A program made the position numbers and the translations under genes. From contig CM049318.1 in NCBI GenBank assembly GCA_026874595.1, positions 48,092,456 to 48,156,455 of the forward strand: a DNA stretch of 64,000 bases, given 5' to 3'. Under the pieces are notes generated by a model. The model saw nothing but the letters and a program-made list of their open reading frames with translations. It was not told where the DNA came from and searched no databases. Below are positions 11,751 to 63,242 of this stretch, in pieces. Source of the DNA: Sipunculus nudus. Taxonomy: Eukaryota; Annelida; Sipuncula; Golfingiida; Sipunculidae. How positions within the stretch are numbered: the first letter of the stretch is position 1; each line of letters starts with the position of its first letter.

Positions 11751-14700
11751 ATGCATTTAAAGAACCAAGAGGTATACAATGAATCGATGGCAGTAAAAGA
11801 ACCAAAAGATTACAATAAACCAATGGCAGTTAAAGTACCAACAGGTATACAATGAATCGATGGCAGAAAAAGAACCAAAAGGTAACAATAAACCAATGGC
11901 AGTTAAAGAACCGACAGGTATACAAAAAATCAATGGCAGAAAAAGAGCCAAAAGGTAACAATAAACCAATGGCCGTTAAAGAACCGACAGGTATACAAAA
12001 AATCGATGGCAGAAAAAGAAACAAAGGTAACAATAAACCAATGGCAGTTAAAGAACCGACAGGTATACAAAAAATCGATGGCAGAAAAAGAGCCAAAAGG
12101 TAACAATAAACCAATGGCAGTTAAAGAACCGACAGGTATACAAAAAATCGATGGCAGAAAAAGAAACAAAGGTAACAATAAACCAATGGCAGTTAAAGAA
12201 CCGACAGGTATACAAAAAATCAATGGCAGAAAAAGAGCCAAAAGGTAACAATAAACCAATGGCCGTTAAAGAACCGACAGGTATACAAAAAATCGATGGC
12301 GGAAAAAGAAACAAAGGTAACAATAAACCAATGGCAGTTAAAGAACCGACAGGTAACAATAAACTAATGGCAGTTAAAGAACCGACAGGTATACAATAAA
12401 TCGATGGCAGAAAAAGAACCAAAGGTAACAATAAACCAATGGCCGTTAAAGAACCGACAGGTAAACAAAAAATCGATGGCAGAAAAAGAACCAAAAGGTA
12501 ACAATAAACCAATGGCAGTTAAAGAACCGACAGGTATACAAAAAATCGATGGCAGAAAAAGAACCAAAAGGTAACAATAAACCAATGACCGTTAAAGAAC
12601 CGACAGGTATACAAAAAATCGATGGCAGAAAAAGAGCCAAAAGGTAACAATAAACCAATGGCCGTTAAAGAACCGACAGGTATACAAAAAATCGATGGCA
12701 GAAAAAGAGCCAAAAGGTAACAATAAACCAATGGCCGTTAAAGAACCGACAGGTATACAAAAAATCGATGGCAGAAAAAGAAACAAAGGTAACAATAAAC
12801 CAATGGCCGTTAAAGAACCGACAGGTATACAAAAAATCGATGGCAGAAAAAGAGCCAAAAGGTAACAATAAACCAATGGCCGTTAAAGAACCGACAGGTA
12901 TACAAAAAATCGATGGCAGAAAAAGAGCCAAAAGGTAACAATAAACCAATGGCCGTTAAAGAACCGACAGGTATACAAAAAATCGATGGCAGAAAAAAGG
13001 CTAAAAGGTAACAATAAACCAATGGCCGTTAAAGAACCGACAGGTATACAAAAAATCGATGGAAGAAAAAGAACCAAAGGTAACAATAAACCAATGGCAG
13101 TTAAAGAACCGACAGGTATACAAAAAATCAATGGCAGAAAAAGAACCAAAATCTAACAATAAACCAATGGCAGTTAAAGAACCGACAGGTATACAATAAA
13201 TCGATGGCAGAAAAAGAGCCAAAAGGTAACAATAAACCAATGGCCGTTAAAGAACCGACAGGTATACAAAAAATCGATGGCAGAAAAAGAACCAAAAGGT
13301 AACAATAAACCAATGGCAGTTAAAGAACCGACAGGGATACAAAAAATCGATGGCAGAAAAAGAGCCAAAAGGTAACAATAAACCAATGGCCGTTAAAGAA
13401 CCGACAGGTATACAAAAAATCGATGGCAGAAAAAGAAACAAAGGTAACAATAAACCAAAGGCAGTTAAAGAACCGACAGGTAACAATAAACTAATGGCAG
13501 TTAAAGAACCGACAGGTATACAATAAATCGATGGCAGAAAAAGAGCCAAAAGGTAACAATAAACCAATGGCCGTTAAAGAACCGACAGGTATACAAAAAA
13601 TCGATGGCAGAAAAAGAGCCAAAAGGTAACAATAAACCAATGGCCGTTAAAGAACCGACAGGTATACAATAAATCGATGGCAGAAAAAGAACCAAAAGGT
13701 AACAATAAACTAATGGCAGTTAAAGAACCGACAGGTATACAAAAAATCAATGGCAGAAAAAGAGCCAAAAGGTAACAATAAACCAATGGCCGTTAAAGAA
13801 CCGACAGGTATACAATAAGTCGATGGCAGAAAAAGAGCAAAAAGGTAACAATAAACCAATCGCAGTTAAAGAACCGACAGGTATACAATAAATCGATGGC
13901 AGAAAAAGAGCCAAAAGGTAAAAATATACCAATGGCAGTTAAAGAACCGACAGGTATACAATAAATCGATGGCAGAAAAAGAACCAAAAGGTAACAATAA
14001 ACTAATGGCCGTTAAAGAACCGACAGGTATACAAAAAAACGATGGCAGAAAAAGAGCCAAAAGGTAACAATAAACCAATGGCAGTTAAAGAACCGACAGG
14101 TATACAAAAAATCGATGGCAGAAAAAGAGCCAAAAGGTAACAATAAACCAATGGCAGTTAAAGAACCGACAGGTATACAAAAAATCGATGGCAGAAAAAG
14201 TACCAAAAGGTAACAATAAACCAATGGCCGTTAAAGAACCGACAGGTATACAAAAAATCGATGGCAGAAAAAGAGCCAAAAGGTAACAATAAACCAATGG
14301 CCGTTAAAGAACCGACAGGTATACAAAAAATCGATGGCAGAAAAAGAGCCAAAAGGTAACAATAAACCAATGGCCGTTAAAGAACCGACAGGTATACAAA
14401 AAATCGATGGCAGAAAAAGAGCCAAAAGGTAACAATAAACCAATGGCCGTTAAAGAACCGACAGGGATACAAAAAATCAATGGCAGAAAAAGAACCAAAA
14501 GGTAACAATAAACTAATGGCAGTTAAAAAACCGACAGGGATACAAAAAATCGATGGCAGAAAAAGAACCAAAGGTAACAATAAACTAATGGCAGTTAAAG
14601 AACCGACAGGTATACAATAAATGGATGGCAGAAAAAGAACCAAAAGGTAACAATAAACCAATGGCAGTTAAAGAACCGACAGGTATACAAAAAATCGATG

Positions 14701-17700
14701 GCAGAAGAAGAGCCAAAAGGTAACAATAAACCAATGGCCGTTAAAGAACCGACAGGGATACAAAAAATCGATGGCAGAAAAAGAGCCAAAAGGTGACAAT
14801 AAACCAATGGCCGTTAAAGAACCGACAGGTATACAAAAAATCGATGGCAGAAAAAGAGCCAAAAGGTAACAATAAACCAATGGCCGTTAAAGAACCAACA
14901 GGTATACAAAAAATCGATGGCAGAAAAAGAAACAAAGGTAACAATAAACCAATGGCAGTTAAAGAACCGACAGGTATACAAAAAATCGATGGCAGAAAAA
15001 GAACCAAAAAGTAACAATAAACCAATGGCAGTTAAAGAACCGACAGGTATACACAAATCGATGGCAGAAAAAGAGCCAAAAGGTAACAATAAACAAATGG
15101 CCGTTTAAGAACCGACAGGTAACAATAAACTAATGGCAGTTAAAGAACCGACAGGTATACAATAAATCGATGGCAGAAAAAGAACCAAAAGGTTACAATA
15201 AACCAATGACCGTTAAAGAACCGACAGGTATACAAAAAATCAATGGCAGAAAAAGAACCAAAAGGTAACAATAAACCAATGGCAGTTAAAGAACCGACAG
15301 GTATACAAAAAATCGATGGCAGAAAAAGAACCAAAGGTAACAATAAACCAATGGCAGTTAAAGAACCGACAGGTATACAAAAAATCAATGGCAGAAAAAG
15401 AACCAAAAGGTAACAATAAACCAATTGCAGTTATAGAACCGACAGGTAACAATAAACTAATGGCAGTTAAAGAACCGACAGGTATACAATAAATCGCTGG
15501 CAGAAACCAGCCAAAAGGTAACAATAAACCAATGGCAGTTAAAGAACCGACAGGTATACAAAAAATCGATGGCAGAAAAAGAACCAAAAGGTAACAATAA
15601 ACCAATGGCAGTTAAAGAACCGACAGGGATACAAAAAATCGATGGCAGAAAAAGAGCCAAAAGGTAACAATAAACCAATGGCCGTTAAAGAACCGACAGG
15701 TATACAAAAAATCGATGGCAGAAAAAGAGCCAAAAGGTAAAAATAAACCAATGGCTGTTAAAGAACCGACAGGTATACAAAAAATCGATGGCAGAAAAAG
15801 AAACAAAGGTAACAATAAACCAATGGCAGTTAAAGAACCGACAGGTAACAATAAACCAATGGCAGTTAAAGAACCGACAGGTATACAATAAATCGATGGC
15901 AGAAAAAGAGCCAAAAGGTAACAATAAACCAATGGCCGTTAAAGAAGCGACAGGTATACAAAAAATTGATGGCAGAAAAAGAGCCAAAAGGTAACAATAA
16001 ACCAATGGCCGTTAAAGAACCGACAGGTATACAAAAAATCGATGGCAGAAAAAGAGCCAAAAGGTAACAATAAACCATTGGCCGTTAAAGAACCGACAGG
16101 TATACAAAAAATCGATGGCAGAAAAAGAACCAAAGGTAACAATAAACCAATGGCAGTTGAAGAACCGACAGGTATACAAAAAATCAATGGCAGAAAAAGA
16201 ACCAAAAGGTAACAATAAACAAATGGCAGTTAAAGAACCGACAGGTATACAAAAAATTGATGGCAGAAAAAGAGCCAAAAGGTAACAATAAACCAATGGC
16301 CGTTAAAGAACCGACAGGTATACAATAAATCGATGGCAGAAAAAGAGCCAAAAGGTAACAATAAACCAATGGCAGTTAAAGAACCGACAGGTATACAATA
16401 AATCGATGGCAGAAAAAGAACCAAAAGGTAACAATAAACCAATGGCCGTTAAAGGACCGACAGGTATACAAAAAATCGATGGCAGAAAAAGAGCCAAAAG
16501 GTAACAATAAACCAATGGCCGTTAAAGGACCGACAGGTATACAAAAAATCGATGGCAGAAAAAGAGCCAAAAGGTAACAATAAACCAATGGCCGTTAAAG
16601 GACCGACAGGTATACAAAAAATCGATGGCAGAAAAAGAGCCAAAAGGTAACAATAAACCAATGGCCGTTAAAGAACCGACAGGGATACAAAAAATCAATG
16701 GCAGAAAAAGAACCAAAAGGTAACAATAAACTAATGGCAGTTAAAGAACCGACAGGTATACAAAAAATCGATGGCAGAAAAAGAGCCAAAAGGTAACAAT
16801 TAACCAATGGCCGTTAAAGGACCGACAGGTATACAAAAGATCGATGGCAGAAAAAGAGCCAAAAGGTAACAATAAACCAATGGCCGTTAAAGGACCGACA
16901 GGTATACAAAAAATCGATGGCAGAAAAAGAGCCAAAAGGTAACAATAAACCAATGGCCGTTAAAGAACCGACAGGGATACAAAAAATCAATGGCAGTAAA
17001 AGAACCAAAAGGTAACAATAAACTAATGGCAGTTAAAGAACCGACAGGTATACAAAAAATCGATGGCAGAAAAAGAACCAAAGGTAACAATAAACCAATG
17101 GCAGTTAAAGAACCGACAGGTATACAAAAAATCAATGGCAGAAAAAGAACCAAAAGGTAACAATAAACCAATGGCAGTTAAAGAACCGACAGGTATACAA
17201 AAAATCGATGGCAGAAAAAGAGCCAAAAGGTAACAATAAACCAATAGCCGTTAAAGAACCGACAGGTATACAATAAATCGATGGCAGAAAAAGAGCCAAA
17301 AGGTAACAATAAACCAATGGCCGTTAAAGAACCGACAGGTATACAATAAATCGATGGCAGAAAAAGAACCAAAAGGTAACAATAAACTAATGGCAGTTAA
17401 AGAACCGACAGGTATACAAAAAATCAATGGCAGAAAAAGAGCCAAAAGGTAACAATAAACCAATGGCCGTTAAAGAACCGACAGGTATACAATAAGTCGA
17501 TGGAAGAAAAAGAGCAAAAAGGTAACAATAAACCAATCGCAGTTAAAGAACCGACAGGTATACAATAAATCGATGGCAGAAAAAGAGCCAAAAGGTAAAA
17601 ATATACCAATGGCAGTTAAAGAACCGACAGGTATACAATAAATCGATGGCAGAAAAAGAACCAAAAGGTAACAATAAACTAATGGCCGTTAAAGAACCGA

Positions 17701-18840
17701 CAGGTATACAAAAAATCGATGGCAGAAAAAGAGCCAAAAGGTAACAATAAACCAATGGCAGTTAAAGAACCGACAGGTATACAAAAAATCGATGGCAGAA
17801 AAAGAGCCAAAGGTAACAATAAACCAATGGCAGTTAAAGAACCGACAGGTATACAAAAAATCGATGGCAGAAAAAGTACCAAAAGGTAACAATAAACTAA
17901 TGGCCGTTAAAGAACCGACAGGTATACAAAAAATCGATGGCAGAAAAAGAGCCAAAAGGTAACAATAAACCAATGGCCGTTAAAGAACCGACAGGTATAC
18001 AAAAAATCGATGGCAGAAAAAGAGCCAAAAGGTAACAATAAACCAATGGCAGTTAAAGAACCGACAGGTATACAAAAAATCGATGGCAGAAAAAGAGCCA
18101 AAAGGTAACAATAAACCAATGGCCGTTAAAGAACCGACAGGGATACAAAAAATCAATGGCAGAAAAAGAACCAAAAGGTAACAATAAACTAATGGCAGTT
18201 AAAAAACCGACAGGGATACAAAAAATCGATGGCAGAAAAAGAACCAAAGGTAACAATAAACTAATGGCAGTTAAAGAACCGACAGGTATACAAAAAATCG
18301 ATGGCAGAAGAAGAGCCAAAAGGTAACAATAAACCAATGGCCGTTAAAGAACCGACAGGGATACAAAAAATCGATGGCAGAAAAAGAGCCAAAAGGTAAC
18401 AATAAACCAATGGCCGTTAAAGAACCGACAGGTATACAAAAAATCGATGGCAGAAAAAGAGCCAAAAGGTAACAATAAACCAATGGCCGTTAAAGAACCG
18501 ACAGGTATACAAAAAATCGATGGCAGAAAAAGAAACAAAGGTAACAATAAACCAATGGCAGTTAAAGAACCGACAGGTATACAAAAAATCGATGGCAGAA
18601 AAAGAACCAAAAAGTAACAATAAACCAATGGCAGTTAAAGAACCGACAGGTATACACAAATCGATTGCAGAAAAAGAGCCAAAAGGTAACAATAAACAAA
18701 TGGCCGTTTAAGAACCGACAGGTAACAATAAACTAATGGCAGTTAAAGAACCGACAGGTATACAATAAATCGATGGCAGAAAAAGAAGCAAAAGGTTACA
18801 ATAAACCAATGACCGTTAAAGAACCGACAGGTATACAAAA
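11751..18840 (+). repeat. Satellite sub-domain dominated by 73-bp AB dimers
   Basis: AB dimers follow each other almost without break, with occasional one-monomer insertions (extra A near 12,350, 13,480, 15,120 and 15,445). The block at about 13,500-15,200 reappears at about 17,180-18,840 with an offset of 3,677 and then 3,603 bp, the step reflecting the loss of about one dimer. Shared marks include GTATACAATAAGTCG, AAAAATATACC and GTATACACAAATCG. Confidence 0.85.
15860..17660 (+). repeat. Satellite block duplicated at +5,494 bp
   Basis: This block matches 21,354-23,154 monomer for monomer. Shared private variants include AAACCATTGGCC, GCAGTTGAAGAACC, AACAATTAACC and GTATACAAAAGATCG. It therefore links the first AB domain to the 4,985-bp repeats further right. 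Confidence 0.8.
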
Positions 18841-21800
18841 AATCAATGGCAGAAAAAGAACCAAAAGGTAACAATAAACCAATGGCAGTTAAAGAACCGA
18901 CAGGTATACAATAAATCGATGGCAGAAAAAGAGCCAAAAGGTAACAATAAACTAATGGCAGTTAAAGAACCGACAGGTATACAAAAAATCGATGGCAGTT
19001 AAAGAACCGACAGGAATACAAAAAATCAATGGCAGAAAAAGAACCAAAAGGTAACAATAAACCAATGGCAGTTAAAGAACCAAAAGGTAACAATAAACTA
19101 ATGGCATTTAAAGAACCGACAGGTATACAAAAAATCAATGGCAGAAAAAGAACCAAAAGGTAACAATAAACCAATGGCAGTTAAAGAACCAAAAGGTAAC
19201 AATAAACTAATGGCAGTTAAAGAACCGACAGGTATACAAAAAATCAATGGCATAAAAAGAACCAAAAGGTAACAATAAACCAATGGCAGTTAAAGAACCA
19301 AAAGGTAACAATAAACAAATGGCAGTTAAAGAACCGACAGGTATACAAAAAATCGATGGCAGTTAAAGAACCGACAGGTATACAATAAATCGATGGCAGA
19401 AAAAGAACCAAAAGGTAACAATAAACAAATGGCCGTTAAAGAACCGACAGGTATACAAAAAATCGATGGCAGAAAAAGAGCCAAAAGGTAACAATAAACC
19501 AATGGCAGTTAAAGAACCAAAAGGTAACAATAAACTAATGGCAGTTAAAGAACCGACAGGTATACAATAAATCGATGGCAGAATAAGAACCAAAAGGTAA
19601 CAATAAACCAATGACCGTTAAAGCACCAAAAGGTAACAATAAACTAATGGCAGTAAAAGAACCGACAGGTATACAATAAATCGATGGCAGAAAAAGAACC
19701 AAAAGTTAACAATAAACCAATGGGAGTTAAAGGACCGACAGGTATACAATAAATCGATGGCAGAAAAAGAGCCAAAAGGTAACAATAAACCAATGACAGT
19801 TAAAGAACCAAAGGGTAACAATAAACTAATGGCAGTGAAAGAACCGACAGGTATACAAAAAATCGATGGCAGAAAAAGAAACAAAGGTAACAATAAACCA
19901 GTGGCAGTTAAAGAACCAAAAGGTAACAATAAACCAATGGCAGTTAAAGGACCGACAGGTATACAATAAATCGATGGCAGAAAAATAGCCAAAAGGTAAC
20001 GATAAACCAATGGCAGTTAAAGAACCAAAAGGTAACAATAAACTAATGGCAGTTAAAGAACCGACAGGTATACAATAAATCGATGGCAGAAAAAGAGCCA
20101 AAAGGTAACAATATACCAATGGCAGTTAAAGAACCAAAAGGTAACAATAAACCAATGGCAGTTAAAGAACCGACAGGTATACAATAAATCGATGGCAGAA
20201 AAAGAGCCAAAAGGTAACAATAAACCAATGGCAGTTAAAGAACCAAAAGGTAACAATAAACCAATGGCAGTTAAAGAACCGACAGGTATACAATAAATCG
20301 ATGGCAGAAAAAGAACCAAAAGGTAACAATAAACCAATGGCAGTTAAAGAACCAAAAGGTAACAATAAACTAATGGCAGTTAAAGAACCGACAGGTATAC
20401 AATAAATCAATGGCAGAAAAAGAGCCAAAAGGTAACAATAAACCAATGGCAGTTAAAGAACCAAAAGGTAACAATAAACCAGTGGCAGTTAAAGAACCAA
20501 AAGGTAACAATAAACCAATGGCAGTTAAAGGACCGACAGGTATACAATAAATCGATGGCAGAAAAATAGCCAAAAGGTAACGATAAACCAATGGCAGTTA
20601 AAGAACCAAAAGGTAACAATAAACTAATGGCAGTTAAAGAACCGACAGGTATACAATAAATCGATGGCAGAAAAAGAGCCAAAAGGTAACAATATACCAA
20701 TGGCAGTTAAAGAACCAAAAGGTAACAATAAACTAATGGCAGTTAAAGAACCGACAGGTATACAATAAATCGATGGCAGAAAAAGAGCCAAAAGGTAACA
20801 ATAAACCAATGGCAGTTAAAGAACCAAAAGGTAACAATAAACCAATGGCAGTTAAAGAACCGACAGGTATACAATAAATCGATGGCAGAAAAAGAACCAA
20901 AAGGTAACAATAAACCAATGGCAGTTAAAGAACCAAAAGGTAACAATAAACTAATGGCAGTTAAAGAACCGACAGGTATACAATAAATCAATGGCAGAAA
21001 AAGAGCCAAAAGGTAACAATAAACCAATGGCAGTTAAAGAACCAAAAGGTAACAATAAACTAATGGCAGTTAAAGAACCGACAGGTATACAATAAATTGA
21101 TGGCAGAAAAAGAGCGAAAAGGTAACAATAAACCAATGGCAGTTAAAGAACCAAAAGGTAACAATAAACTAATGGCAGTTAAAGAACCGACAGGTATACA
21201 ATAAATCGATGGCAGAAAAAGAACCAAAAGGTAACAATAAACTAATGGCAGTTAAAGAACCGACAGGTATACAAAAAATCGATGGCAGAAAAAGAAACAA
21301 AGGTAACAATAAACCAATGGCAGTTAAAGAACCGACAGGTAACAATAAACCAATGGCAGTTAAAGAACCGACAGGTATACAATAAATCGATGGCAGAAAA
21401 AGAGCCAAAAGGTAACAATAAACCAATGGCCGTTAAAGAACCGACAGGTATACAAAAAATTGATGGCAGAAAAAGAGCCAAAAGGTAACAATAAACCAAT
21501 GGCCGTTAAAGAACCGACAGGTATACAAAAAATCGATGGCAGAAAAAGAGCCAAAAGGTAACAATAAACCATTGGCCGTTAAAGAACCGACAGGTATACA
21601 AAAAATCGATGGCAGAAAAAGAACCAAAGGTAACAATAAACCAATGGCAGTTGAAGAACCGACAGGTATACAAAAAATCAATGGCAGAAAAAGAACCAAA
21701 AGGTAACAATAAACCAATGGCAGTTAAAGAACCGACAGGTATACAAAAAATCAATGGCAGAAAAAGAGACAAAAGGTAACAATAAACCAATGGCCGTTAA

Positions 21801-23830
21801 AGAACCGACAGGTATACAATAAATCGATGGCAGAAAAAGAGCCAAAAGGTAACAATAAACCAATGGCAGTTAAAGAACCGACAGGTATACAATAAATCGA
21901 TGGCAGAAAAAGAACCAAAAGGTAACAATAAACCAATGGCCGTTAAAGGACCGACAGGTATACAAAAAATCGATGGCAGAAAAAGAGCCAAAAGGTAACA
22001 ATAAACCAATGGCCGTTAAAGGACCGACAGGTATACAAAAAATCGATGGCAGAAAAAGAGCCAAAAGGTAACAATAAACCAATGGCCGTTAAAGGACCGA
22101 CAGGTATACAAAAAATCGATGGCAGAAAAAGAGCCAAAAGGTAACAATAAACCAATGGCCGTTAAAGAACCGACAGGGATACAAAAAATCAATGGCAGAA
22201 AAAGAACCAAAAGGTAACAATAAACTAATCGCAGTTAAAGAACCGACAGGTATACAAAAAATCGATGGCAGAAAAAGAGCCAAAAGGTAACAATTAACCA
22301 ATGGCCGTTAAAGGACCGACAGGTATACAAAAGATCGATGGCAGAAAAAGAGCCAAAAGGTAACAATAAACCAATGGCCGTTAAAGGACCGACAGGTATA
22401 CAAAAAATCGATGGCAGAAAAAGAGCCAAAAGGTAACAATAAACCAATGGCCGTTAAAGAACCGACAGGGATACAAAAAATCAATGGCAGTAAAAGAACC
22501 AAATGGTAACAATAAACTAATGGCAGTTAAAGAACCGACAGGTATACAAAAAATCGATGGCAGAAAAAGAACCAAAGGTAACAATAAACCAATGGCAGTT
22601 AAAGAACCGACAGGTATACAAAAAATCAATGGCAGAAAAAGAACCAAAAAGTAACAATAAACCAATGGCAGTTAAAGAACCGACAGGTATACAAAAAATC
22701 GATGGCAGAAAAAGAGCCAAAAGGTAACAATAAACCAATGGCCGTTAAAGAACCGACAGGTATACAATAAATCGATGGCAGAAAAAGAGCCAAAAGGTAA
22801 CAATAAACCAATGGCCGTTAAAGAACCGACAGGTATACAATAAATCGATGGCAGAAAAAGAACCAAAAGGTAACAATAAACTAATGGCAGTTAAAGAACC
22901 GACAGGTATACAAAAAATCAATGGCAGAAAAAGAGCCAAAAGGTAACAATAAACCAATGGCCGTTAAAGAACCGACAGGTATACAATAAGTCGATGGCAG
23001 AAAAAGAGCAAAAAGGTAACAATAAACCAATCGCAGTTAAAGAACCGACAGGTATACAATAAATCGATGGCAGAAAAAGAGCCAAAAGGTAAAAATATAC
23101 CAATGGCAGTTAAAGAACCGACAGGTATACAATAAATCGATGGCAGAAAAAGAACCAAAAGGTAACAATAAACTAATGGCCGTTAAAGAACCGACAGGTA
23201 TACAAAAAATCAATGGCAGAAAAAGAACCAAAAGGTAACAATAAACCAATGGCAGTTAAAGAACCGACAGGTATACAAAAATCGATGGCAGAAAAAGAAC
23301 CAAAGGTAACAATAAACCAATGGCAGTTAAAGAACCGACAAGTAACAATAAACTAATGGCAGTGAAAGAACCGACAGGTATACAATAAATCGATGGCAGA
23401 AAAAGAACCAAAAGGTAACAATAAACAAATGGCCGTTAAAGAACTGACAGGTATACAAAAAATCGATGGCAGAAAAAGAGCCAAAAGGTAACAATAAACC
23501 AATGGCAGTTAAAGAACCGACAGGGATACAAAAAATCAATGGCAGAAAAAGAACCAAAAGGTAACAATAAACTAATGGCAGTTAAAGAACCGACAGGTAT
23601 ACAAAAAATCGATGGCAGAAAAAGAGCCAAAAGGTAACAATTAACCAATGGGCGTTAAAGGACCGACAGGTGTACAAAAGATCGATGGCAGAAAAAGAGC
23701 CAAAAGGTAACAATAAACCAATGGCCGTTAAAGGACCGACAGGTATACAAAAAATCGATGGCAGAGAAAGAGCCAAAAGGTAACAATAAACCAATGGCCG
23801 TTAAAGAACCGACAGGGATACAAAAAATCA
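18841..23830 (+). repeat. 4,985-bp higher-order unit, copy 1
   Basis: The first part (about 18,960-21,240) is made of 109-bp AAB trimers in which the first A ends in CCAAAA; the second part is 73-bp AB dimers. The rare variant ACCAATGGGAGTT gives exact registration: TGGG at 19,721 here, 24,706 in copy 2 and 28,705 in copy 3. The copy 1/2 offset is constant at 4,985 bp apart from a single-base step near 27,990. Confidence 0.85.
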
Positions 23831-39050: not shown

Positions 39051-39054
39051 AAAT

Positions 39055-45000: not shown

Positions 45001-45065
45001 ATACAAAAAATCAATGGCAGAAAAAGAACCAAAAGGGAACAATAAACCAATGGCCGTTAAAGAAC
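39055..45065 (+). repeat. 3,015-bp tandem duplication, two copies
   Basis: Copies at about 39,055-42,070 and 42,070-45,065 correspond at a constant 3,015-bp offset. One exact registration point is AAAGGGAACAATAAACC, with GGAAC at 42,021 and 45,036. Other shared private variants are AAAGAATCGATTGCAG, GTATACAAACATCG, AGGTATTAATAAAC and GAACGGACAGG. Differences between the copies are very few, so the duplication is recent. A shorter third copy of the first part follows at about 45,065-45,490. Confidence 0.9.
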
Positions 45066-47089: not shown

Positions 47090-50000
47090 GTTAAAGAACC
47101 GACAGGTATACAAAAAATCAATGGCAGAAAAAGAACCAAAAGGTAACAATAAACCAATGGCCGTTAAAGAACCGACAGGTATACAAAAAATCGATGGCAG
47201 AAAAAGAAACAAAGGTAACAATAAACCAATGGCAGTTAAAGAACCGACAGGTATACAAAAAAATCGATGGCAGAAAAAGAACCAAAAAGTAACAATAAAC
47301 TAATGGCAGTTAAAGAACCGACAGGTATACACAAATCGATGGCAGAAAAAGAGCCAAAAGGTAACAATAAACAAATGGCCGTTTGAGAAACGACAGGTAA
47401 CAATAAACTAATGGCAGTTAAAGAACCGACAGGTATACAATAAATCGATGACAGAAAAAGAGCCAAAAGGTAACAATAAACCAATGGCAGTTAAAGAACC
47501 AAAAGGTAACAATAAACCAATGGCCGTTAAAGAACCGACAGGTATACAATAAATCGATGGCAGAAAAAGAACCAAAAGGTTACAATAAACTAATGGCAGT
47601 TAAAGAACCAAAAGGTAACAATAAACCAATGACCGTTAAAGAACCGACAGGTATACAAAAAATCAATGGCAGAAAAAGAACCAAAAGGTAACAATAAACC
47701 AATGGCCGTTAAAGAACCGACAGGTATACAATAAATCGATGGCAGAAAAAGAGCCAAAAGGTAACAATAAACCAATGGCAGTTAAAGAACCAAAAGGTAA
47801 CAATAAACTAATGGCAGTTAAAGAACCGACAGGTATACAATAAATTGATGGCAGAAAAAGAGCCAAAAGGTAACAATAAACCAATGGCAGTTAAAGAACC
47901 AAAAGGTGACAATAAACTAATGGCAGTTAAAGAACCGACAGGTATACAATAAATCGATGGCAGAAAAAGAACCAAAAGGTAACAATAAACTAATGGCAGT
48001 TAAAGAACCGACAGGTATACAAAAAATCAATGGCAGAAAAAGAACCAAAAGGTAACAATAAACCAATGGCAGTTAAAGAACCGACAGGTATACAAAAATC
48101 GATGGCAGAAAAAGAGCCAAAAGGTAACAATAAACAAATGGCCGTTAAAGAACCGACAGGTATACAAAAAATCGATGGCAGAAAAAGAGCCAAAAGGTAA
48201 CAATAAACCAATGGCAGTTAAAGAACCAAAAGGTAACAATAAACTAATGGCAGTTAAAGAACCGACAGGTAACAATAAACTAATGGCAGTTAAAGAACCG
48301 ACAGGTATACAATAAATCGATGGCAGAAAAAGAACCAAAAGGTAACAATAAACCAATGGCAGTTAAAGAACCAAAAGGTAACAATAAACTAATGGCAGTT
48401 AAAGAACCAAAAGGTAACAATAAACTAATGGCAGTTAAAGAACCGACAGGTATACAATAAATCGATGGCAGAAAAAGAACCAAAAGGTAACAATAAACCA
48501 ATGGCAGTTAAAGAACCAAAAGGTAACAATAAACCAATGGCAATTAAAGGACCGACAGGTATACAATAAATCGATGGCAGAAAAAGAGCCAAAAGGTAAC
48601 AATAAACCAATGGCAGTTAAAGAACCAAAAGGTAACAATAAACCAATGGCCGTTAAAGAACCGACAGGTATACAATAAATCGATGGCAGAAAAAGAACCA
48701 AAAGGTTACAATAAACTAATGGCAGTTAAAGAACCAAAAGGTAACAATAAACCAATGGCCGTTAAAGAACCGACAGGTATAGAAAAAATCGAGGGCAGAA
48801 AAAGAGCCAAAAGGTAACAATAAACCAATGGCAGTTAAAGAACCAAAAGGTAACAATAAACCAATGGCCGTTAAAGAACCGACAGGTATACAATAAATCG
48901 ATGGCAGAAAAAGAACCAAAAGGTTACAATAAACTAATGGCAGTTAAAGAACCAAAAGGTAACAATAAACCAATGGCCGTTAAAGAACCGACAGGTATAG
49001 AAAAAATCGAGGGCAGAAAAAGAGCCAAAAGGTAACAATAAACCAATGGCAGTTAAAGAACCGACAGGTATATAAAAAATCGATGGCAGAAAAAGAGCCA
49101 AAAGGTAACAATAAACCAATGGCCGTTAAAGAACCGACAGGTATACAAAAAATCGATGGCAGAAAAAGAGCCAAAAGGTAACAATAAACTAATGGCAGTT
49201 AAAGAACCAAAAGGTAACAATAAACTAATGGCAGTTAAAGAACCGACAGGTATACAATAAATCGATGGCAGAAAAAGAACCAAAAGGTAACAATAAACTA
49301 ATGGCAGTTAAAGAACCAAAAGGTAACTATAAACTAATGGCAGTTAAAGAACCAAAAGGTAACAATAAACTAATGGCTGTTAAAGAACCGACAGGTATAC
49401 AAAAAATCAATGGCAGAAAAAGAACCAAAAGGTAACAATAAACCAATGGCCGTTAAAGAACCGACAGGTATACAAAAAATCGATGGCAGAAAAAGAAACA
49501 AAGGTAACAATAAACCAATGGCAGTTAAAGAACCGACAGGTATACAAAAAAATCGATGGCAGAAAAAGAACCAAAAAGTAACAATAAACTAATGGCAGTT
49601 AAAGAACCGACAGGTATACACAAATCGATGGCAGAAAAAGAGCCAAAAGGTAACAATAAACAAATGGCCGTTTAAGAACCGACAGGTAACAATAAACTAA
49701 TGGCAGTTAAAGAACCGACAGGTATACAATAAATCGATGGCAGAAAAAGAGCCAAAAGGTAACAATAAACCAATGGCAGTTAAAGAACCAAAAGGTAACA
49801 ATAAACCAATGGCCGTTAAAGAACCGACAGGTATACAATAAATCGATGGCAGAAAAAGAATCAAAAGGTTACAATAAACTAATGGCAGTTAAAGAACCAA
49901 AAGGTAACAATAAACCAATGACCGTTAAAGAACCGACAGGTATACAAAAAATCAATGGCAGAAAAAGAACCAAAAGGTAACAATAAACCAATGGCCGTTA

Positions 50001-51046
50001 AAGAACCGACAGGTATACAATAAATCGATGGCAGAAAAAGAGCCAAAAGGTAACAATAAACCAATGGCAGTTAAAGAACCAAAAGGTAACAATAAACTAA
50101 TGGCAGTTAAAGAACCGACAGGTATACAATAAATTGATGGCAGAAAAAGAGCCAAAAGGTAACAATAAACCAATGGCAGTTAAAGAACCAAAAGGTGACA
50201 ATAAACTAATGGCAGTTAAAGAACCGACAGGTATACAATAAATCGATGGCAGAAAAAGAACCAAAAGGTAACAATAAACTAATGGCAGTTAAAGAACCGA
50301 CAGGTATACAAAAAATCAATGGCAGAAAAAGAACCAAAAGGTAACAATAAACCAATGGCAGTTAAAGAACCGACAGGTATACAAAAATCGATGGCAGAAA
50401 AAGAGCCAAAAGGTAACAATAAACAAATGGCCGTTAAAGAACCGACAGGTATACAAAAAATCGATGGCAGAAAAAGAGCCAAAAGGTAACAATAAACCAA
50501 TGGCAGTTAAAGAACCAAAAGGTAACAATAAACTAATGGCAGTTAAAGAACCGACAGGTAACAATAAACTAATGGCAGTTAAAGAACCGACAGGTATACA
50601 ATAAATCGATGGCAGAAAAAGAACCAAAAGGTAACAATAAACCAATGGCAGTTAAAGAACCAAAAGGTAACAATAAACTAATGGCAGTTAAAGAACCAAA
50701 AGGTAACAATAAACTAATGGCAGTTAAAGAACCGACAGGTATACAATAAATCGATGGCAGAAAAAGAACCAAAAGGTAACAATAAACCAATGGCAGTTAA
50801 AGAACCAAAAGGTAACAATAAACCAATGGCAATTAAAGGACCGACAGGTATACAATAAATCGATGGCAGAAAAAGAGCCAAAAGGTAACAATAAACCAAT
50901 GGCAGTTAAAGAACCAAAAGGTAACAATAAACCAATGGCCGTTAAAGAACCGACAGGTATACAATAAATCGATGGCAGAAAAAGAACCAAAAGGTTACAA
51001 TAAACTAATGGCAGTTAAAGAACCAAAAGGTAACAATAAACCAATG
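47090..51046 (+). repeat. 2,289-bp offset duplication in the satellite
   Basis: The blocks 47,090-48,757 and 49,379-51,046 match at a constant 2,289-bp offset and diverge sharply at their right ends (AATGGCC against AATGACC). Between them, about 48,600-49,000 holds a local 221-bp duplication carrying GTATAGAAAAAATCGAGGG twice. That variant links this region to the 1,566-bp units on its right. Confidence 0.85.
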
Positions 51047-51499
51047 ACCGTTAAAGAACCGACAGGTATACAAAAAATCAATGGCAGAAAAAGAACCAAA
51101 AGGTAACAATAAACCAATGGCCGTTAAAGAACCGACAGGTATACAATAAATCGATGGCAGAAAAAGAGCCAAAAGGTAACAATAAACCAATGGCAGTTAA
51201 AGAACCAAAAGGTATACAATAAATTGATGGCAGAAAAAGAGCCAAAAGGTAACAATAAACCAATGGCAGTTAAAGAACCAAAAGGTGACAATAAACTAAT
51301 GGCAGTTAAAGAACCGACAGGTATACAATAAATCGATGGCAGAAAAAGAACCAAAAGGTAACAATAAACTAATGGCAGTTAAAGAACCGACAGGTATACA
51401 AAAAATCAATGGCAGAAAAAGAGCCAAAAGGTAACAATAAACAAATGGCCGTTAAAGAACCGACAGGTATACAAAAAATCGATGGCAGAAAAAGAGCCA

Positions 51500-54400
51500 A
51501 AAGGTAACAATAAACCAATGGCAGTTAAAGAACCAAAAGGTAACAATAAACTAATGGCAGTTAAAGAACCAAAAGGTAACAATAAACTAATGGCAGTTAA
51601 AGAACCGACAGGTATACAATAAATCGATGGCAGAAAAAGAACCAAAAGGTAACAATAAACTAATGGCAGTTAAAGAACCAAAAGGTAACTATAAACTAAT
51701 GGCAGTTAAAGAACCAAAAGGTAACAATAAACTAATGGCTGTTAAAGAACCGACAGGTATACAATAAATCGATGGCAGAAAAAGAACCAAAAGGTAACAA
51801 TAAACTAATGGCAGTTAAAGAACCGACAGGTATACAAAAAATCAATGGCAGAAAAAGAACCAAAAGGTAACAATAAACCAATGGCAATTAAAGAACCGAC
51901 AGGTATACAAAAAATCAATGGCAGAAAAAGAACCAAAAGGTAACAATAAACCAATGGCCGTTAAAGAACCGACAGGTATACAAAAAATCGATGGCAGAAA
52001 AAGAGCCAAAAGGTAACAATAAACCAACGGCCGTTAAAGGACCGAGAGGTATACAAAAAATCGATGGCAGAAAAAGAGCCAAAAGGTAACAATAAACCGA
52101 TGGCCCTTAAAGGACCGACAGGTATACAAAAAATCGATGGCAGAAAAAGAGCCAAAAGGTAACAATAAACCAATGGCCGTTAAAGGACCGACAGGTATAC
52201 AAAAAATCAATTGCAGAAAAAGAATCAAAAGGTAACAATAAACCAATGGCAGTTAAAGAACCGACAGGTATACAATAAATCGATGGCAGAAAAAGAACCA
52301 AAGGTAACAATAAACCAATGGCAGTTAAAGAACCGACAGGTATACAATAAATCGATGGCAGAAAAAGAACCAAAAGGTAACAATAAACTAATGGCAGTTA
52401 AAGAACCGACAGGTATACAATAAATCGATGGCAGAAAAAGAGCCAAAAGGTAACAATAAACCAATGGCCGTTAAAGGACCGACAGGTATACAAAAAATCG
52501 ATGGCAGAAAAAGAGCCAAAAGGTAACAATAAACCAATGGCCGTTAAAGGACCGACAGGTATACAAAAAATCGATGGCAGAAAAAGAGCCAAAAGGTAAC
52601 AATAAACCAATTGCCGTTAAAGAACCGACAGGGATACAAAAAATCGATGGCAGAAAAAGAGCCAAAAGGTAACAATAAACCAATGACCGTTAAAGAACCG
52701 ACAGGTATACAAAAAATCGATGGCAGAAAAAGAGCCAAAAGGTAACAATAAACCAATGGCCGTTAAAGAACCGACAGGTATAGAAAAAATCGAGGGCAGA
52801 AAAAGAGCCAAAAGGTAACAATAAACCAATGGCAGTTAAAGAACCGACAGGTATATAAAAAATCGATGGCAGAAAAAGAGCCAAAAGGTAACAATAAACC
52901 AATGGCCGTTAAAGAACCGACAGGTATACAAAAAATCGATGGCAGAAAAAGAGCCAAAAGGTAACAATAAACTAATGGCAGTTAAAGAACCGACAGGTAA
53001 CAATAAACTAATGGCAGTTAAAGAACCGACAGGTATACAATAAATCGATGGCAGAAAAAGAACCAAAAGGTAACAATAAACCAATGGCAGTTAAAGAACC
53101 AAAAGGTAACAATAAACTAATGGCAGTTAAAGAACCAAAAGGTAACAATAAACTAATGGCAGTTAAAGAACCGACAGGTATACAATAAATCGATGGCAGA
53201 AAAAGAACCAAAAGGTAACAATAAACTAATGGCAGTTAAAGAACCAAAAGGTAACTATAAACTAATGGCAGTTAAAGAACCAAAAGGTAACAATAAACTA
53301 ATGGCTGTTAAAGAACCGACAGGTATACAATAAATCGATGGCAGAAAAAGAACCAAAAGGTAACAATAAACTAATGGCAGTTAAAGAACCGACAGGTATA
53401 CAAAAAATCAATGGCAGAAAAAGAACCAAAAGGTAACAATAAACCAATGGCAATTAAAGAACCGACAGGTATACAAAAAATCAATGGCAGAAAAAGAACC
53501 AAAAGGTAACAATAAACCAATGGCCGTTAAAGAACCGACAGGTATACAAAAAATCGATGGCAGAAAAAGAGCCAAAAGGTAACAATAAACCAACGGCCGT
53601 TAAAGGACCGAGAGGTATACAAAAAATCGATGGCAGAAAAAGAGCCAAAAGGTAACAATAAACCGATGGCCCTTAAAGGACCGACAGGTATACAAAAAAT
53701 CGATGGCAGAAAAAGAGCCAAAAGGTAACAATAAACCAATGGCCGTTAAAGGACCGACAGGTATACAAAAAATCAATTGCAGAAAAAGAATCAAAAGGTA
53801 ACAATAAACCAATGGCAGTTAAAGAACCGACAGGTATACAATAAATCGATGGCAGAAAAAGAACCAAAGGTAACAATAAACCAATGGCAGTTAAAGAACC
53901 GACAGGTATACAATAAATCGATGGCAGAAAAAGAACCAAAAGGTAACAATAAACTAATGGCAGTTAAAGAACCGACAGGTATACAATAAATCGATGGCAG
54001 AAAAAGAGCCAAAAGGTAACAATAAACCAATGGCCGTTAAAGGACCGACAGGTATACAAAAAATCGATGGCAGAAAAAGAGCCAAAAGGTAACAATAAAC
54101 CAATGGCCGTTAAAGGACCGACAGGTATACAAAAAATCGATGGCAGAAAAAGAGCCAAAAGGTAACAATAAACCAATTGCCGTTAAAGAACCGACAGGGA
54201 TACAAAAAATCGATGGCAGAAAAAGAGCCAAAAGGTAACAATAAACCAATGACCGTTAAAGAACCGACAGGTATACAAAAAATCGATGGCAGAAAAAGAG
54301 CCAAAAGGTAACAATAAACCAATGGCCGTTAAAGAACCGACAGGTATAGAAAAAATCGAGGGCAGAAAAAGAGCCAAAAGGTAACAATAAACCAATGGCA

Positions 54401-57400
54401 GTTAAAGAACCGACAGGTATATAAAAAATCGATGGCAGAAAAAGAGCCAAAAGGTAACAATAAACCAATGGCCGTTAAAGAACCGACAGGTATACAAAAA
54501 ATCGATGGCAGAAAAAGAGCCAAAAGGTAACAATAAACTAATGGCAGTTAAAGAACCGACAGGTAACAATAAACTAATGGCAGTTAAAGAACCGACAGGT
54601 ATACAATAAATCGATGGCAGAAAAAGAACCAAAAGGTAACAATAAACCAATGGCAGTTAAAGAACCAAAAGGTAACAATAAACTAATGGCAGTTAAAGAA
54701 CCAAAAGGTAACAATAAACTAATGGCAGTTAAAGAACCGACAGGTATACAATAAATCGATGGCAGAAAAAGAACCAAAAGGTAACAATAAACTAATGGCA
54801 GTTAAAGAACCAAAAGGTAACTATAAACTAATGGCAGTTAAAGAACCAAAAGGTAACAATAAACTAATGGCTGTTAAAGAACCGACAGGTATACAATAAA
54901 TCGATGGCAGAAAAAGAACCAAAAGGTAACAATAAACTAATGGCAGTTAAAGAACCGACAGGTATACAAAAAATCAATGGCAGAAAAAGAACCAAAAGGT
55001 AACAATAAACCAATGGCAATTAAAGAACCGACAGGTATACAAAAAATCAATGGAAGAAAAAGAACCAAAAGGTAACAATAAACCAATGGCCGTTAAAGAA
55101 CCGACAGGTATACAAAAAATCGATGGCAGAAAAAGAGCCAAAAGGTAACAATAAACCAACGGCCGTTAAAGGACCGAGAGGTATACAAAAAATCGATGGC
55201 AGAAAAAGAGCCAAAAGGTAACAATAAACCGATGGCCATTAAAGGACCGACAGGTATACAAAAAATCGATGGCAGAAAAAGAGCCAAAAGGTAACAATAA
55301 ACCAATGGCCGTTAAAGGACCGACAGGTATACAAAAAATCAATTGCAGAAAAAGAATCAAAAGGTAACAATAAACCAATGGCAGTTAAAGAACCGACAGG
55401 TATACAATAAATCGATGGCAGAAAAAGAACCAAAGGTAACAATAAACCAATGGCAGTTAAAGAACCGACAGGTATACAATAAATCGATGGCAGAAAAAGA
55501 ACCAAAAGGTAACAATAAACTAATGGCAGTTAAAGAACCGACAGGTATACAATAAATCGATGGCAGAAAAAGAGCCAAAAGGTAACAATAAACCAATGGC
55601 CGTTAAAGGACCGACAGGTATACAAAAAATCGATGGCAGAAAAAGAGCCAAAAGGTAACAATAAACCAATGGCCGTTAAAGGACCGACAGGTATACAAAA
55701 AATCGATGGCAGAAAAAGAGCCAAAAGGTAACAATAAACCAATTGCCGTTAAAGAACCGACAGGGATACAAAAAATCGATGGCAGAAAAAGAGCCAAAAG
55801 GTAACAATAAACCAATGACCGTTAAAGAACCGACAGGTATACAAAAAATCGATGGCAGAAAAAGAGCCAAAAGGTAACAATAAACCAATGGCCGTTAAAG
55901 AACCGACAGGTATAGAAAAAATCGAGGGCAGAAAAAGAGCCAAAAGGTAACAATAAACCAATGGCAGTTAAAGAACCGACAGGTATATAAAAAATCGATG
56001 GCAGAAAAAGAGCCAAAAGGTAACAATAAACCAATGGCCGTTAAAGAACCGACAGGTATACAAAAAATCGATGGCAGAAAAAGAGCCAAAAGGTAACAAT
56101 AAACTAATGGCAGTTAAAGAACCGACAGGTAACAATAAACTAATGGCAGTTAAAGAACCGACAGGTATACAATAAATCGATGGCAGAAAAAGAACCAAAA
56201 GGTAACAATAAACCAATGGCAGTTAAAGAACCAAAAGGTAACAATAAACTAATGGCAGTTAAAGAACCAAAAGGTAACAATAAACTAATGGCAGTTAAAG
56301 AACCGACAGGTATACAATAAATCGATGGCAGAAAAAGAACCAAAAGGTAACAATAAACTAATGGCAGTTAAAGAACCAAAAGGTAACTATAAACTAATGG
56401 CAGTTAAAGAACCAAAAGGTAACAATAAACTAATGGCTGTTAAAGAACCGACAGGTATACAATAAATCGATGGCAGAAAAAGAACCAAAAGGTAACAATA
56501 AACTAATGGCAGTTAAAGAACCGACAGGTATACAAAAAATCAATGGCAGAAAAAGAACCAAAAGGTAACAATAAACCAATGGCAATTAAAGAACCGACAG
56601 GTATACAAAAAATCAATGGCAGAAAAAGAACCAAAAGGTAACAATAAACCAATGGCCGTTAAAGAACCGACAGGTATACAAAAAATCGATGGCAGAAAAA
56701 GAGCCAAAAGGTAACAATAAACCAACGGCCGTTAAAGGACCGAGAGGTATACAAAAAATCGATGGCAGAAAAAGAGCCAAAAGGTAACAATAAACCGATG
56801 GCCCTTAAAGGACCGACAGGTATACAAAAAATCGATGGCAGAAAAAGAGCCAAAAGGTAACAATAAACCAATGGCCGTTAAAGGACCGACAGGTATACAA
56901 AAAATCAATTGCAGAAAAAGAATCAAAAGGTAACAATAAACCAATGGCAGTTAAAGAACCGACAGGTATACAATAAATCGATGGCAGAAAAAGAACCAAA
57001 GGTAACAATAAACCAATGGCAGTTAAAGAACCGACAGGTATACAATAAATCGATGGCAGAAAAAGAACCAAAAGGTAACAATAAACTAATGGCAGTTAAA
57101 GAACCGACAGGTATACAATAAATCGATGGCAGAAAAAGAGCCAAAAGGTAACAATAAACCAATGGCCGTTAAAGGACCGACAGGTATACAAAAAATCGAT
57201 GGCAGAAAAAGAGCCAAAAGGTAACAATAAACCAATGGCCGTTAAAGGACCGACAGGTATACAAAAAATCGATGGCAGAAAAAGAGCCAAAAGGTAACAA
57301 TAAACCAATTGCCGTTAAAGAACCGACAGGGATACAAAAAATCGATGGCAGAAAAAGAGCCAAAAGGTAACAATAAACCAATGACCGTTAAAGAACCGAC

Positions 57401-59235
57401 AGGTATACAAAAAATCGATGGCAGAAAAAGAGCCAAAAGGTAACAATAAACCAATGGCCGTTAAAGAACCGACAGGTATAGAAAAAATCGAGGGCAGAAA
57501 AAGAGCCAAAAGGTAACAATAAACCAATGGCAGTTAAAGAACCGACAGGTATATAAAAAATCGATGGCAGAAAAAGAGCCAAAAGGTAACAATAAACCAA
57601 TGGCCGTTAAAGAACCGACAGGTATACAAAAAATCGATGGCAGAAAAAGAGCCAAAAGGTAACAATAAACTAATGGCAGTTAAAGAACCGACAGGTAACA
57701 ATAAACTAATGGCAGTTAAAGAACCGACAGGTATACAATAAATCGATGGCAGAAAAAGAACCAAAAGGTAACAATAAACCAATGGCAGTTAAAGAACCAA
57801 AAGGTAACAATAAACTAATGGCAGTTAAAGAACCAAAAGGTAACAATAAACTAATGGCAGTTAAAGAACCGACAGGTATACAATAAATCGATGGCAGAAA
57901 AAGAACCAAAAGGTAACAATAAACTAATGGCAGTTAAAGAACCAAAAGGTAACTATAAACTAATGGCAGTTAAAGAACCAAAAGGTAACAATAAACTAAT
58001 GGCTGTTAAAGAACCGACAGGTATACAATAAATCGATGGCAGAAAAAGAACCAAAAGGTAACAATAAACTAATGGCAGTTAAAGAACCGACAGGTATACA
58101 AAAAATCAATGGCAGAAAAAGAACCAAAAGGTAACAATAAACCAATGGCAATTAAAGAACCGACAGGTATACAAAAAATCAATGGAAGAAAAAGAACCAA
58201 AAGGTAACAATAAACCAATGGCCGTTAAAGAACCGACAGGTATACAAAAAATCGATGGCAGAAAAAGAGCCAAAAGGTAACAATAAACCAACGGCCGTTA
58301 AAGGACCGAGAGGTATACAAAAAATCGATGGCAGAAAAAGAGCCAAAAGGTAACAATAAACCGATGGCCATTAAAGGACCGACAGGTATACAAAAAATCG
58401 ATGGCAGAAAAAGAGCCAAAAGGTAACAATAAACCAATGGCCGTTAAAGGACCGACAGGTATACAAAAAATCAATTGCAGAAAAAGAATCAAAAGGTAAC
58501 AATAAACCAATGGCAGTTAAAGAACCGACAGGTATACAATAAATCGATGGCAGAAAAAGAACCAAAGGTAACAATAAACCAATGGCAGTTAAAGAACCGA
58601 CAGGTATACAATAAATCGATGGCAGAAAAAGAACCAAAAGGTAACAATAAACTAATGGCAGTTAAAGAACCGACAGGTATACAATAAATCGATGGCAGAA
58701 AAAGAGCCAAAAGGTAACAATAAACCAATGGCCGTTAAAGGACCGACAGGTATACAAAAAATCGATGGCAGAAAAAGAGCCAAAAGGTAACAATAAACCA
58801 ATGGCCGTTAAAGGACCGACAGGTATACAAAAAATCGATGGCAGAAAAAGAGCCAAAAGGTAACAATAAACCAATTGCCGTTAAAGAACCGACAGGGATA
58901 CAAAAAATCGATGGCAGAAAAAGAGCCAAAAGGTAACAATAAACCAATGACCGTTAAAGAACCGACAGGTATACAAAAAATCGATGGCAGAAAAAGAGCC
59001 AAAAGGTAACAATAAACCAATGGCCGTTAAAGAACCGACAGGTATAGAAAAAATCGAGGGCAGAAAAAGAGCCAAAAGGTAACAATAAACCAATGGCAGT
59101 TAAAGAACCGACAGGTATATAAAAAATCGATGGCAGAAAAAGAGCCAAAAGGTAACAATAAACCAATGGCCGTTAAAGAACCGACAGGTATACAAAAAAT
59201 CGATGGCAGAAAAAGAGCCAAAAGGTAACAATAAA
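51500..59235 (+). repeat. 1,566-bp higher-order repeat, about 4.9 tandem copies
   Basis: The variant GTATATAAAAAATCGATGG starts at 52,851, 54,417, 55,983, 57,549 and 59,115, exactly 1,566 bp apart each time. All copies also share AAACCAACGGCC, GGACCGAGAGG, AATTGCAGAAAAAGAATC and GAAAAAATCGAGGGC. Copies 1, 2 and 4 read GATGGCCCTTAAAGG where copies 3 and 5 read GATGGCCATTAAAGG. Copies 3 and 5 alone have AATGGAAGAAAAAG. The array therefore has a 3,132-bp superperiod over its last four copies. Homology starts near 51,500 and fades near 59,235. Confidence 0.93.
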
Positions 59236-60105
59236 CCAATGGCCGTTAAAGAACCGACAGGTATACAAAAAATCGATGGCAGAAAAAGAAACAAAGGTAA
59301 CAATAAACCAATGGCAGTTAAAGAACCGACAGGTATACAAAAAAATCGATGGCAGAAAAAGAACCAAAAAGTAACAATAAACCAATGGCAGTTAAAGAAC
59401 CGACAGGTATACACAAATCGATGGCAGAAAAAGAGCCAAAAGGTAACAATAAACAAATGGCCGTTTAAGAACCGACAGGTAACAATAAACTAATGGCAGT
59501 TAAAGAACCGACAGGTATACAATAAATCGATGGCAGAAAAAGAGCCAAAAGGTAACAATAAACCAATGGCAGTTAAAGAACCAAAAGGTAACAATAAACC
59601 AATGGCCGTTAAAGAACCGACAGGTATACAATAAATCGATGGCAGAAAAAGAACCAAAAGGTTACAATAAACCAATGACCGTTAAAGAACCGACAGGTAT
59701 ACAAAAAATCAATGGCAGAAAAAGAACCAAAAGGTAACAATAAACCAATGGCAGTTAAAGAACCGACAGGTATACAAAAATCGATGACAGTAAAAGAACC
59801 AAAGATAACAATAAACCAATGGCAGTTAAAGAACCGACAGGTATACAAAAAATCAATGGCAGAAAAAGAACCAAAAGGTAACAATAAACCAATGGCAGTT
59901 AAAGAACCGACAGGTATACAATAAATCGATGGCAGAAAAAGAACCAAAAGGTAACAATAAACCAATGGCCGTTAAAGAACCGACAGGTATACAAAAAATC
60001 GATGGCAGAAAAAGAGCCAAAAGGTAACAATAAACCAATGGCAGTTAAAGAACCAAAAGGTATACAATAAATCGATGGCAGTTAAAGAACCGACAGGTAT
60101 ACAAA
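59236..60105 (+). repeat. Right end of the main satellite array
   Basis: Mixed AB and AAB units with growing irregularity: a GATGACAGTAAAAG B variant and a CAAAGATAACAATAAACC junction near 59,800, and two short B-type monomers after 60,045. The array stops inside a B monomer after GGTATACAAA. Confidence 0.85.
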
Positions 60106-60110
60106 CAAGG

Positions 60111-60122
60111 GACCCATGGGTC
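60111..60122. repeat. 12-bp perfect palindrome at the array/insertion junction
   Basis: GACCCATGGGTC is its own reverse complement and lies six bases inside the insertion's left end. It may be part of the element's terminus. Confidence 0.8.
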
Positions 60123-63120: not shown

Positions 63121-63154
63121 GTCCAACGGTGTCGAAACGTGCCAGTCTTACGGA

Positions 63155-63228: not shown

Positions 63229-63242
63229 TGGACCATGACTAT

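Follow-up and report, generated by a model that had tools for sequence, protein, structure and literature searches.

How a complete hierarchy of repeat units can be built within a tandem array, and whether such an array must belong to a centromere, is a question raised by a 64,000-bp window of the Sipunculus nudus genome (contig CM049318.1, here C13, positions 48,092,456 to 48,156,455). Most of the window is occupied by a 48-kb satellite of short monomers arranged in higher-order repeats (HORs). A preliminary description of the window had proposed nested levels of order and suggested a centromere, a heterochromatin block or a large intronic satellite. Our analysis indicates that the array is most probably a giant single-locus minisatellite, probably one that arose at this site and expanded there through in-register unequal exchange.

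Tandem Repeats Finder (TRF) identified a single head-to-tail array with periods of 73 and 109 bp. A dynamic-programming decomposition against five seed monomers revealed 202 distinct variants among the 1,330 monomers, with lengths of 36 bp (722 monomers), 37 bp (540), 35 bp (63) or other values (5). The two main types, A (GCAGAAAAAGARCCAAAAGGTAACAATAAACCAATG, 549 monomers) and B (GCMGTTAAAGAACCGACAGGTATACAAWAAATCGATG, 570 monomers), are accompanied by a third type, C (171 monomers), whose head resembles B and whose body resembles A. Two rarer hybrids were found: Y (37 monomers), in which the switch from B to A falls later in the monomer than in C, and the reverse hybrid X (3 monomers). Mean identities within classes are 0.954 (A-A), 0.940 (B-B) and 0.966 (C-C), and those between classes are 0.758 (A-B), 0.889 (A-C) and 80.7% (C-B). 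Autocorrelation of the whole array showed peaks at lags of 73 (0.770), 109 (0.648), 146 (0.641) and 36 bp (0.615), with a baseline of 0.338 from base composition. The array has a strong strand asymmetry (AT skew 0.56-0.59), and the six terminal monomers on either side depart somewhat more from the consensus of their class (0.94) than those in the bins (0.956-0.975).

Several other properties were considered for the monomers and rejected. An 18-bp ancestral half-unit, hinted at by TRF rows, was not above shuffles in any of four monomer classes (half-against-half p 0.23-0.67). There were no inverted monomers, with zero reverse-strand matches to the cores tested, and AA/TT showed no helical periodicity of 10-11 bp (correlations of -0.043 and -0.007). 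A coding array was rejected as well, with the longest stop-to-stop stretch wholly inside it reaching 156 aa and units of 73, 109 and 145 bp that are not divisible by three. No Rfam family was found at the gathering threshold, and exact-pattern scans of the genome-contig and viral-contig collections gave zero matches each.

The monomer types follow a strict order. The 570 B-terminated units comprise 381 AB (73 bp), 106 ACB (109 bp), 28 AYB and 21 ACCB (145 bp) units, as well as 34 others. The monomers of 36/37 bp and the 73-bp AB dimers of the preliminary description are thus recovered, and the sizes that it gave for trimers and tetramers stand, but its names AAB and AAAB are better replaced by ACB and ACCB since C is a third type. 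A never directly followed A (0/549, compared with approximately 226 expected in shuffles), and B directly followed B in only 14 of 570 cases (approximately 244 in shuffles). The monomer preceding A was B in 545 of the 549 cases, X in three and C in one. A and B flank C in 106 of 171 cases and Y in 28 of 37, and these positions match those where a one-monomer-shifted exchange would place hybrids.

Above this level, the array is built of block duplications. A self-scan without gaps listed 15 pairs of highly similar blocks, the principal ones of which are presented in Table 1 together with the other features of the locus, and each of the nine block offsets in the monomer-level scan spans an integral count of monomers (43 to 229). 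Identical runs extend to 108 monomers at most, whereas the maximum was 8 in grammar-keeping shuffles and 12 in first-order Markov arrays (100 trials each). With diverged A and B types, homogeneity within each type and 1566-bp units that share 99.87% identity, the array has the organization that defines HORs. The nested, multi-level order proposed earlier is therefore real, as borne out by the decomposition, the block scan and the shuffles. Five of the offsets proposed with it (1566, 2289, 3015, 4985 and 5494 bp) are present as long runs and that of 1,236 bp over a 400-bp stretch (99.5%), whereas the offset of about 3,640 bp exists but splits into 3603 (99.5%) and 3638 bp (99.0%), over 400 bp each. 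Further offsets beyond these include 3345 and 6727 bp. Rare variants had also been claimed to keep register between blocks, and the 88 types of variant present in 2-8 copies, which form 512 pairs, agree with this, their most frequent separations being 1566 (53 pairs), 3132 (42), 4985 (30), 4698 (27) and 3015 bp (23).

Table 1. Features of the satellite locus on C13 (positions are those of the window; window-equivalent where they extend past its end)
Feature	Position	Strand	Basis or remark
Second exon-like stretch	9578..9631	-	splice phase read as compatible with the 11527..11685 stretch
Exon-like open stretch, gtaagt donor	11527..11685	-	
Main array of 1,330 monomers of mostly 36/37 bp, one orientation	11753..60104	+	TRF, decomposition, core matches
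Left zone, almost solely AB (73-bp) dimers	11753..18812	+	class string, bin counts
Older nested block copies, offsets 5494, 10479, 3345, 8330 and 13824, 99.2-99.6% identical	15757..31828	+	
4985-bp block pair, 99.76% over 4,192 bp (10 mismatches)	18813..27989	+	self-scan, mismatch comparison
3015-bp block, tandem duplication, 0 mismatches over 3,045 bp	39026..45085	+	
2289-bp block pair, 99.6% over 1,725 bp (7 mismatches)	47057..51070	+	
1566-bp, 43-monomer HOR unit, ~5 tandem copies	51451..59236	+	
Interspersed element inside satellite	60106..63270 (right end approximate)	.	flank sequence, genome search, copy comparison
Detached right end of satellite, with chimeric 42-bp monomer	63269..63749	+	TRF, junction count
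Unrelated 26-bp array, start	63748..64000 (433 bp more past window end)	+	TRF
26-bp array, whole	63748-64433		
49-bp array	70940-72688		
57-bp array	78805-83994		
65-bp array	84260-84693		
64-bp array	97091-101860		
40-bp array	117785-120466		

The blocks form a graded series of identities, from the perfect 3015-bp pair (100%) through the 1566-bp units and the 4985-bp pair to the offsets of 5494 (99.41%, 12 mismatches in 2,031 bp) and 3345 bp (99.23%, 16 mismatches in 2,089 bp, five of them adjacent). The 45 mismatches in four block pairs comprise 22 transitions and 23 transversions, and eight are located at CpG. The geometry is tandem, with the 1566-bp unit matching across 6,220 bp. Its five copies follow the pattern 1, 2, 3, 2, 3: copies 2 and 4 are identical, and copies 3 and 5 differ solely in their final 44 bp, where the repeated zone ends. 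Copies 3 and 5 are set apart from copies 1, 2 and 4 by just two sites, a pattern suggestive of the duplication of a 3132-bp pair of units, although gene conversion would serve equally. The identity of individual monomers is independent of distance (0.93-0.95 from neighbours to monomers 1,300 apart), as would be expected of old variation among the monomers, distributed across the whole array, and of young blocks.

False duplication is a known risk of assembly, and the absence of any mismatch in the 3015-bp pair would be expected if the blocks, above all this one, were artefacts of this kind. We consider this explanation unlikely: the other pairs carry substitutions (10 in 4,192 bp, 7 in 1,725 bp and 12 in 2,031 bp), a sign of distinct copies, although two joined haplotypes are still conceivable; blocks of 1.5-5 kb fit within the length of long reads, and the window is free of N.

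The strongest new fact is the confinement of the satellite to one locus. In the 1.43-Gb assembly, an exact 24-bp core common to the A and C bodies has 322 forward matches, all of which are in the window, with none in reverse and none for the control. The 24-bp B core (up to three mismatches) has 574 forward matches, again all in the window, and two reverse matches, which are located outside the window and are comparable in number to those of the reversed-pattern control (one match). Thus, the satellite is private to this single locus in the present assembly, with unassembled copies being possible, and this sets it apart from classical satellites and from centromeric families common to several chromosomes. 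Whereas a classical satellite is plentiful across many loci or forms megabase blocks, the array occupies 48 kb at one site; a tandem repeat with a unit of 10-100 bp at a defined locus corresponds to a minisatellite or variable number tandem repeat (VNTR), which would also be expected to vary in length among individuals.

The locus (C13:48.104-48.156 Mb) is internal to a 70.94-Mb contig, one of 17 that appear to be chromosome-sized based on the lengths of ten of the contigs C1-C17 and of seven sampled later contigs, all of which are below 0.11 Mb. Its internal position at 48.1 Mb, together with HOR order and local homogenization resembling those of primate centromeres, speaks for a centromere specific to this chromosome or for a block of its pericentromeric heterochromatin. 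However, the proposal of a centromere or heterochromatin is very unlikely to hold for an array of just 48 kb that is private to one contig, with EGF-like exons within approximately 35 kb and unrelated short arrays nearby. A CENP-B-box-like motif, which is present in a subset of alpha-satellite monomers in primates, had no matches on either strand, although the box is characteristic of mammals and its lack is hardly informative.

From the copied blocks, the hybrid monomers and the confinement to one locus we infer the following mechanism and order of events. An ancestral repeat of approximately 36 bp would have diverged into A and B types (about 76% identical), and the AB pair would have turned into the unit of amplification. 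C, with the switch from its B-like head to its A-like body within a short stretch common to both types, would then have given ACB and ACCB. In-register unequal exchange between sister chromatids, or template switching in repair, would have duplicated blocks of 43 to approximately 150 monomers, some of them repeatedly, with new blocks piled on old ones, and shifted crossovers would create hybrid monomers. The three signatures expected from exchange, namely duplication lengths in whole monomers, hybrid monomers and nested blocks, are all present. The structure can be explained without any cellular function.

A crude, symmetric neutral simulation (18 runs) reproduced some of these features. With mean blocks of 20-40 monomers (12 runs), the longest identical runs reached 33-152 monomers, whereas mean blocks of two monomers, which kept 172-182 variants, produced longest runs of 28-45. 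Larger blocks therefore fit better than single-unit slippage. The six runs with blocks of 20-40 monomers that kept 109-153 variants (202 observed) gave 8-17 offset families, compared with eight in the array, and the six that retained fewer variants produced longest runs of 49-152.

Several results weigh against formation by unequal exchange. In the six simulations with 109-153 variants, the longest runs were 33-72 monomers, compared with 108 in the array; the longer runs observed are those that a few recent large events would make. When the reading phase is rotated, the array becomes a succession of P (B-body and A-head, 544) and Q (A-body and B-head, 754), with 31 junctions fitting neither. 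Q comes after P in 541 of 544 cases and is repeated up to four times in a row (run lengths of 1, 2, 3 and 4 were seen 391, 137, 27 and 2 times, respectively), whereas P follows P just twice in 544. This one-sided grammar was reproduced in none of the 18 simulations, so a founder effect or constraint must be added. A founder ACB unit would account for it, with a sequence constraint as the alternative. Moreover, the C body equals the upstream A body in only 4 of 137 cases, which is below the value for random A monomers (0.09 expected). C has therefore not been copied recently from its neighbour, and older units that contained C are the probable source of the trimers. An assembly error could also underlie the perfect 3015-bp duplication. 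The neutral model supports unequal exchange only in part.

The right-hand limit of the array provides evidence on its relation to mobile elements. An interspersed element, whose 5' end at 60106 interrupts a B monomer, separates the last 480 bp of the satellite, which restarts beyond the element at approximately 63269. Of 1,677 first-look candidates in a genome search with the first 395 bp of the element, the 40 scored comprised the window copy and 39 others at 99% identity. Compared over 1.5-1.9 kb, the element is 97.5-99.3% identical to seven other genomic copies, suggesting that its insertion is probably young. Four of these seven copies, those with the 5' flank read, have the same start base after a run of A in different surrounding sequence. 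This high-copy element, with copies across the whole genome, has internal repeats spaced by approximately 650-680 bp and an ACGG microsatellite in subterminal position, and close to either end it carries GCTCAGCTGA in inverted orientation; no Pfam match above the cut-off was found in the four of its 12 listed open stretches that were scanned.

The presence of this element in the right end of the satellite could point to a mobile-element-borne repeat, similar to the Helitron/Helentron-associated repeats of oysters. This origin is exceedingly improbable, since the element cuts through an existing monomer, its four copies with known 5' flanks have other sequences there, and the two monomer cores have no match elsewhere in the genome above control, in place of the dispersed monomer copies inside elements that characterize Helitron-type repeats. 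The detached end of the satellite contains a chimeric 42-bp monomer, in which a B head is joined to A at an AAAG common to both. This junction occurs five times in the detached end and is absent from the main array, indicating that the two parts are no longer homogenized together, or never were at that end.

The remaining proposal concerns the position of the array and is compatible with its interpretation as a local minisatellite: it may be a giant intronic satellite in a minus-strand EGF-like gene, whose transcription or splicing it may affect. To the right of the array, minus-strand EGF-like exons are found at window-equivalent positions 69,913, 70,502, 73,830 and 94,014, three of which pass the Pfam cut-off for PF00008 and one that for PF07974, and a further candidate near 73.1 kb is below the cut-off. 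To the left, minus-strand exon-like stretches are present at 11.5 and 9.6 kb (Table 1). Satellite-filled introns of megabase size occur in Drosophila Y genes, as described in the passages compared (PMC6508621), and the exon-like stretches of both sides could possibly belong to one gene with the array in its intron. However, the left stretch at 11527-11685 has no Pfam match and its sole match in the genome is itself (one match, two candidates). Its homology with a Cys-containing stretch on the right was rejected, as 347 of 1,000 shuffles scored as high, and its acceptor phase, as read, is at odds with the phase 1 read for the exons on the right. An intronic location is quite possible, but we lean against it. 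The longest intronic tandem repeats with units of up to 50 bp given in one source for older assemblies are 682 bp in Daphnia, 3,049 bp in the fly and 943 bp in the bee (PMC3152781), and a 48-kb intronic array would be far larger.

The Pfam scans of the flanks and the insert covered 15 of 74 listed stop-to-stop stretches of at least 55 aa, which gave sub-threshold matches alone. On the right flank, they covered six of 20 listed stretches of one segment and three EGF-like pieces. A PDB search produced one weak match (E 0.24). The splice-donor end of the left exon-like stretch is duplicated locally over 34 bp (11486-11551). Four or more minus-strand EGF-like exons, apparently of a multi-EGF gene, are interleaved with the short arrays between window-equivalent positions 69913 and 94121.

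TRF analysis of 164 kb around the main array revealed further tandem arrays on the right that are unrelated to the satellite, with units of 26 (0.7 kb), 49 (1.7 kb), 57 (5.2 kb), 65 (0.4 kb), 64 (4.8 kb) and 40 bp (2.7 kb), in addition to smaller ones on both sides. All 26 exact matches to a core of the 57-bp array likewise fall within its own locus. Among five arrays tested by autocorrelation, the 40-bp array showed a block lag of 880 bp (0.946) and, slightly, a dimer lag (0.925) stronger than its monomer lag (0.908), and the 49-bp array a block lag of 1416 bp (0.829) above the monomer lag (0.801), on an overlap of only approximately 330 bp. The 57-, 64- and 26-bp arrays had no block lag stronger than the monomer lag. 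Five sequence fragments of the neighbourhood had no match in the literature searched.

Minisatellites and VNTRs have a 10-100-bp unit at one locus, interspersed variant repeats that can be mapped, and tandem expansion. The array from S. nudus shares these features, but is far larger than is typical and has a dimeric and block hierarchy. Alpha satellite of primates has a 171-bp monomer and forms very large centromeric arrays, in contrast to the mostly 36/37-bp monomers of this 48-kb array, which occupies one locus and does not look centromeric. As far as the sources compared describe human and ape centromeres, with their local-nested and 'cascading' HORs (PMC10053651, PMC12428378), the two systems are alike in having diverged monomers per unit, near-identical units, internal repeats of monomer types and nested tandem amplification.

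The view that such order would be unusual in an invertebrate does not agree with published work, since HORs have already been described in beetles (PMC10218199, PMC8122249) and discussed for molluscan satellites (PMC5874043). Among the matches listed in a search on clams, snails and related groups, no paper contained 'higher-order repeats'. In the portions of the beetle reports compared here, TCsat38 and TCsat18 of Tribolium castaneum are dimeric HORs, and TCsat38 consists of AB dimers with a within-type divergence below the 19.4% between A and B (PMC10218199). TCsat38 also has scattered monomers, and the passages compared make no mention of a block hierarchy. Monomer, dimer and trimer units coexist in Chrysolina carnifex as they do here, but with a 211-bp monomer and a pericentromeric location (PMC8122249, the part compared). 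The oyster Crassostrea gigas resembles S. nudus in having a long array (the longest standalone CgiSat01 array has 232 monomers, approximately 40 kb) in a genome with little classical satellite, whereas 91.4% of CgiSat01 extractions are associated with mobile elements according to the sections compared (PMC8268682), unlike the one private locus described here. Thus, HOR order in invertebrates is not new, and it is the size, hierarchy and one-locus confinement of this array that are notable.

We tentatively suggest that a complete HOR hierarchy, comprising monomers, dimers to tetramers, a 43-monomer unit, possibly its pair, and multi-kilobase blocks, might arise at one private intrachromosomal locus, perhaps an intragenic one, without a genome-wide family or a centromere. 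If so, local unequal exchange would suffice for HOR order, with neither centromere function nor interchromosomal exchange being needed, and HOR order alone would be poor evidence of a centromere. The graded steps of the locus, with block identities of 100, 99.9, 99.8, 99.4 and 99.2% and an inserted element that is 97.5-99.3% identical to its compared relatives, represent a compact natural record, so the locus can test models of satellite birth. The array would then be a satellite caught at its birth, and its one-sided grammar may reflect constraint beyond drift.

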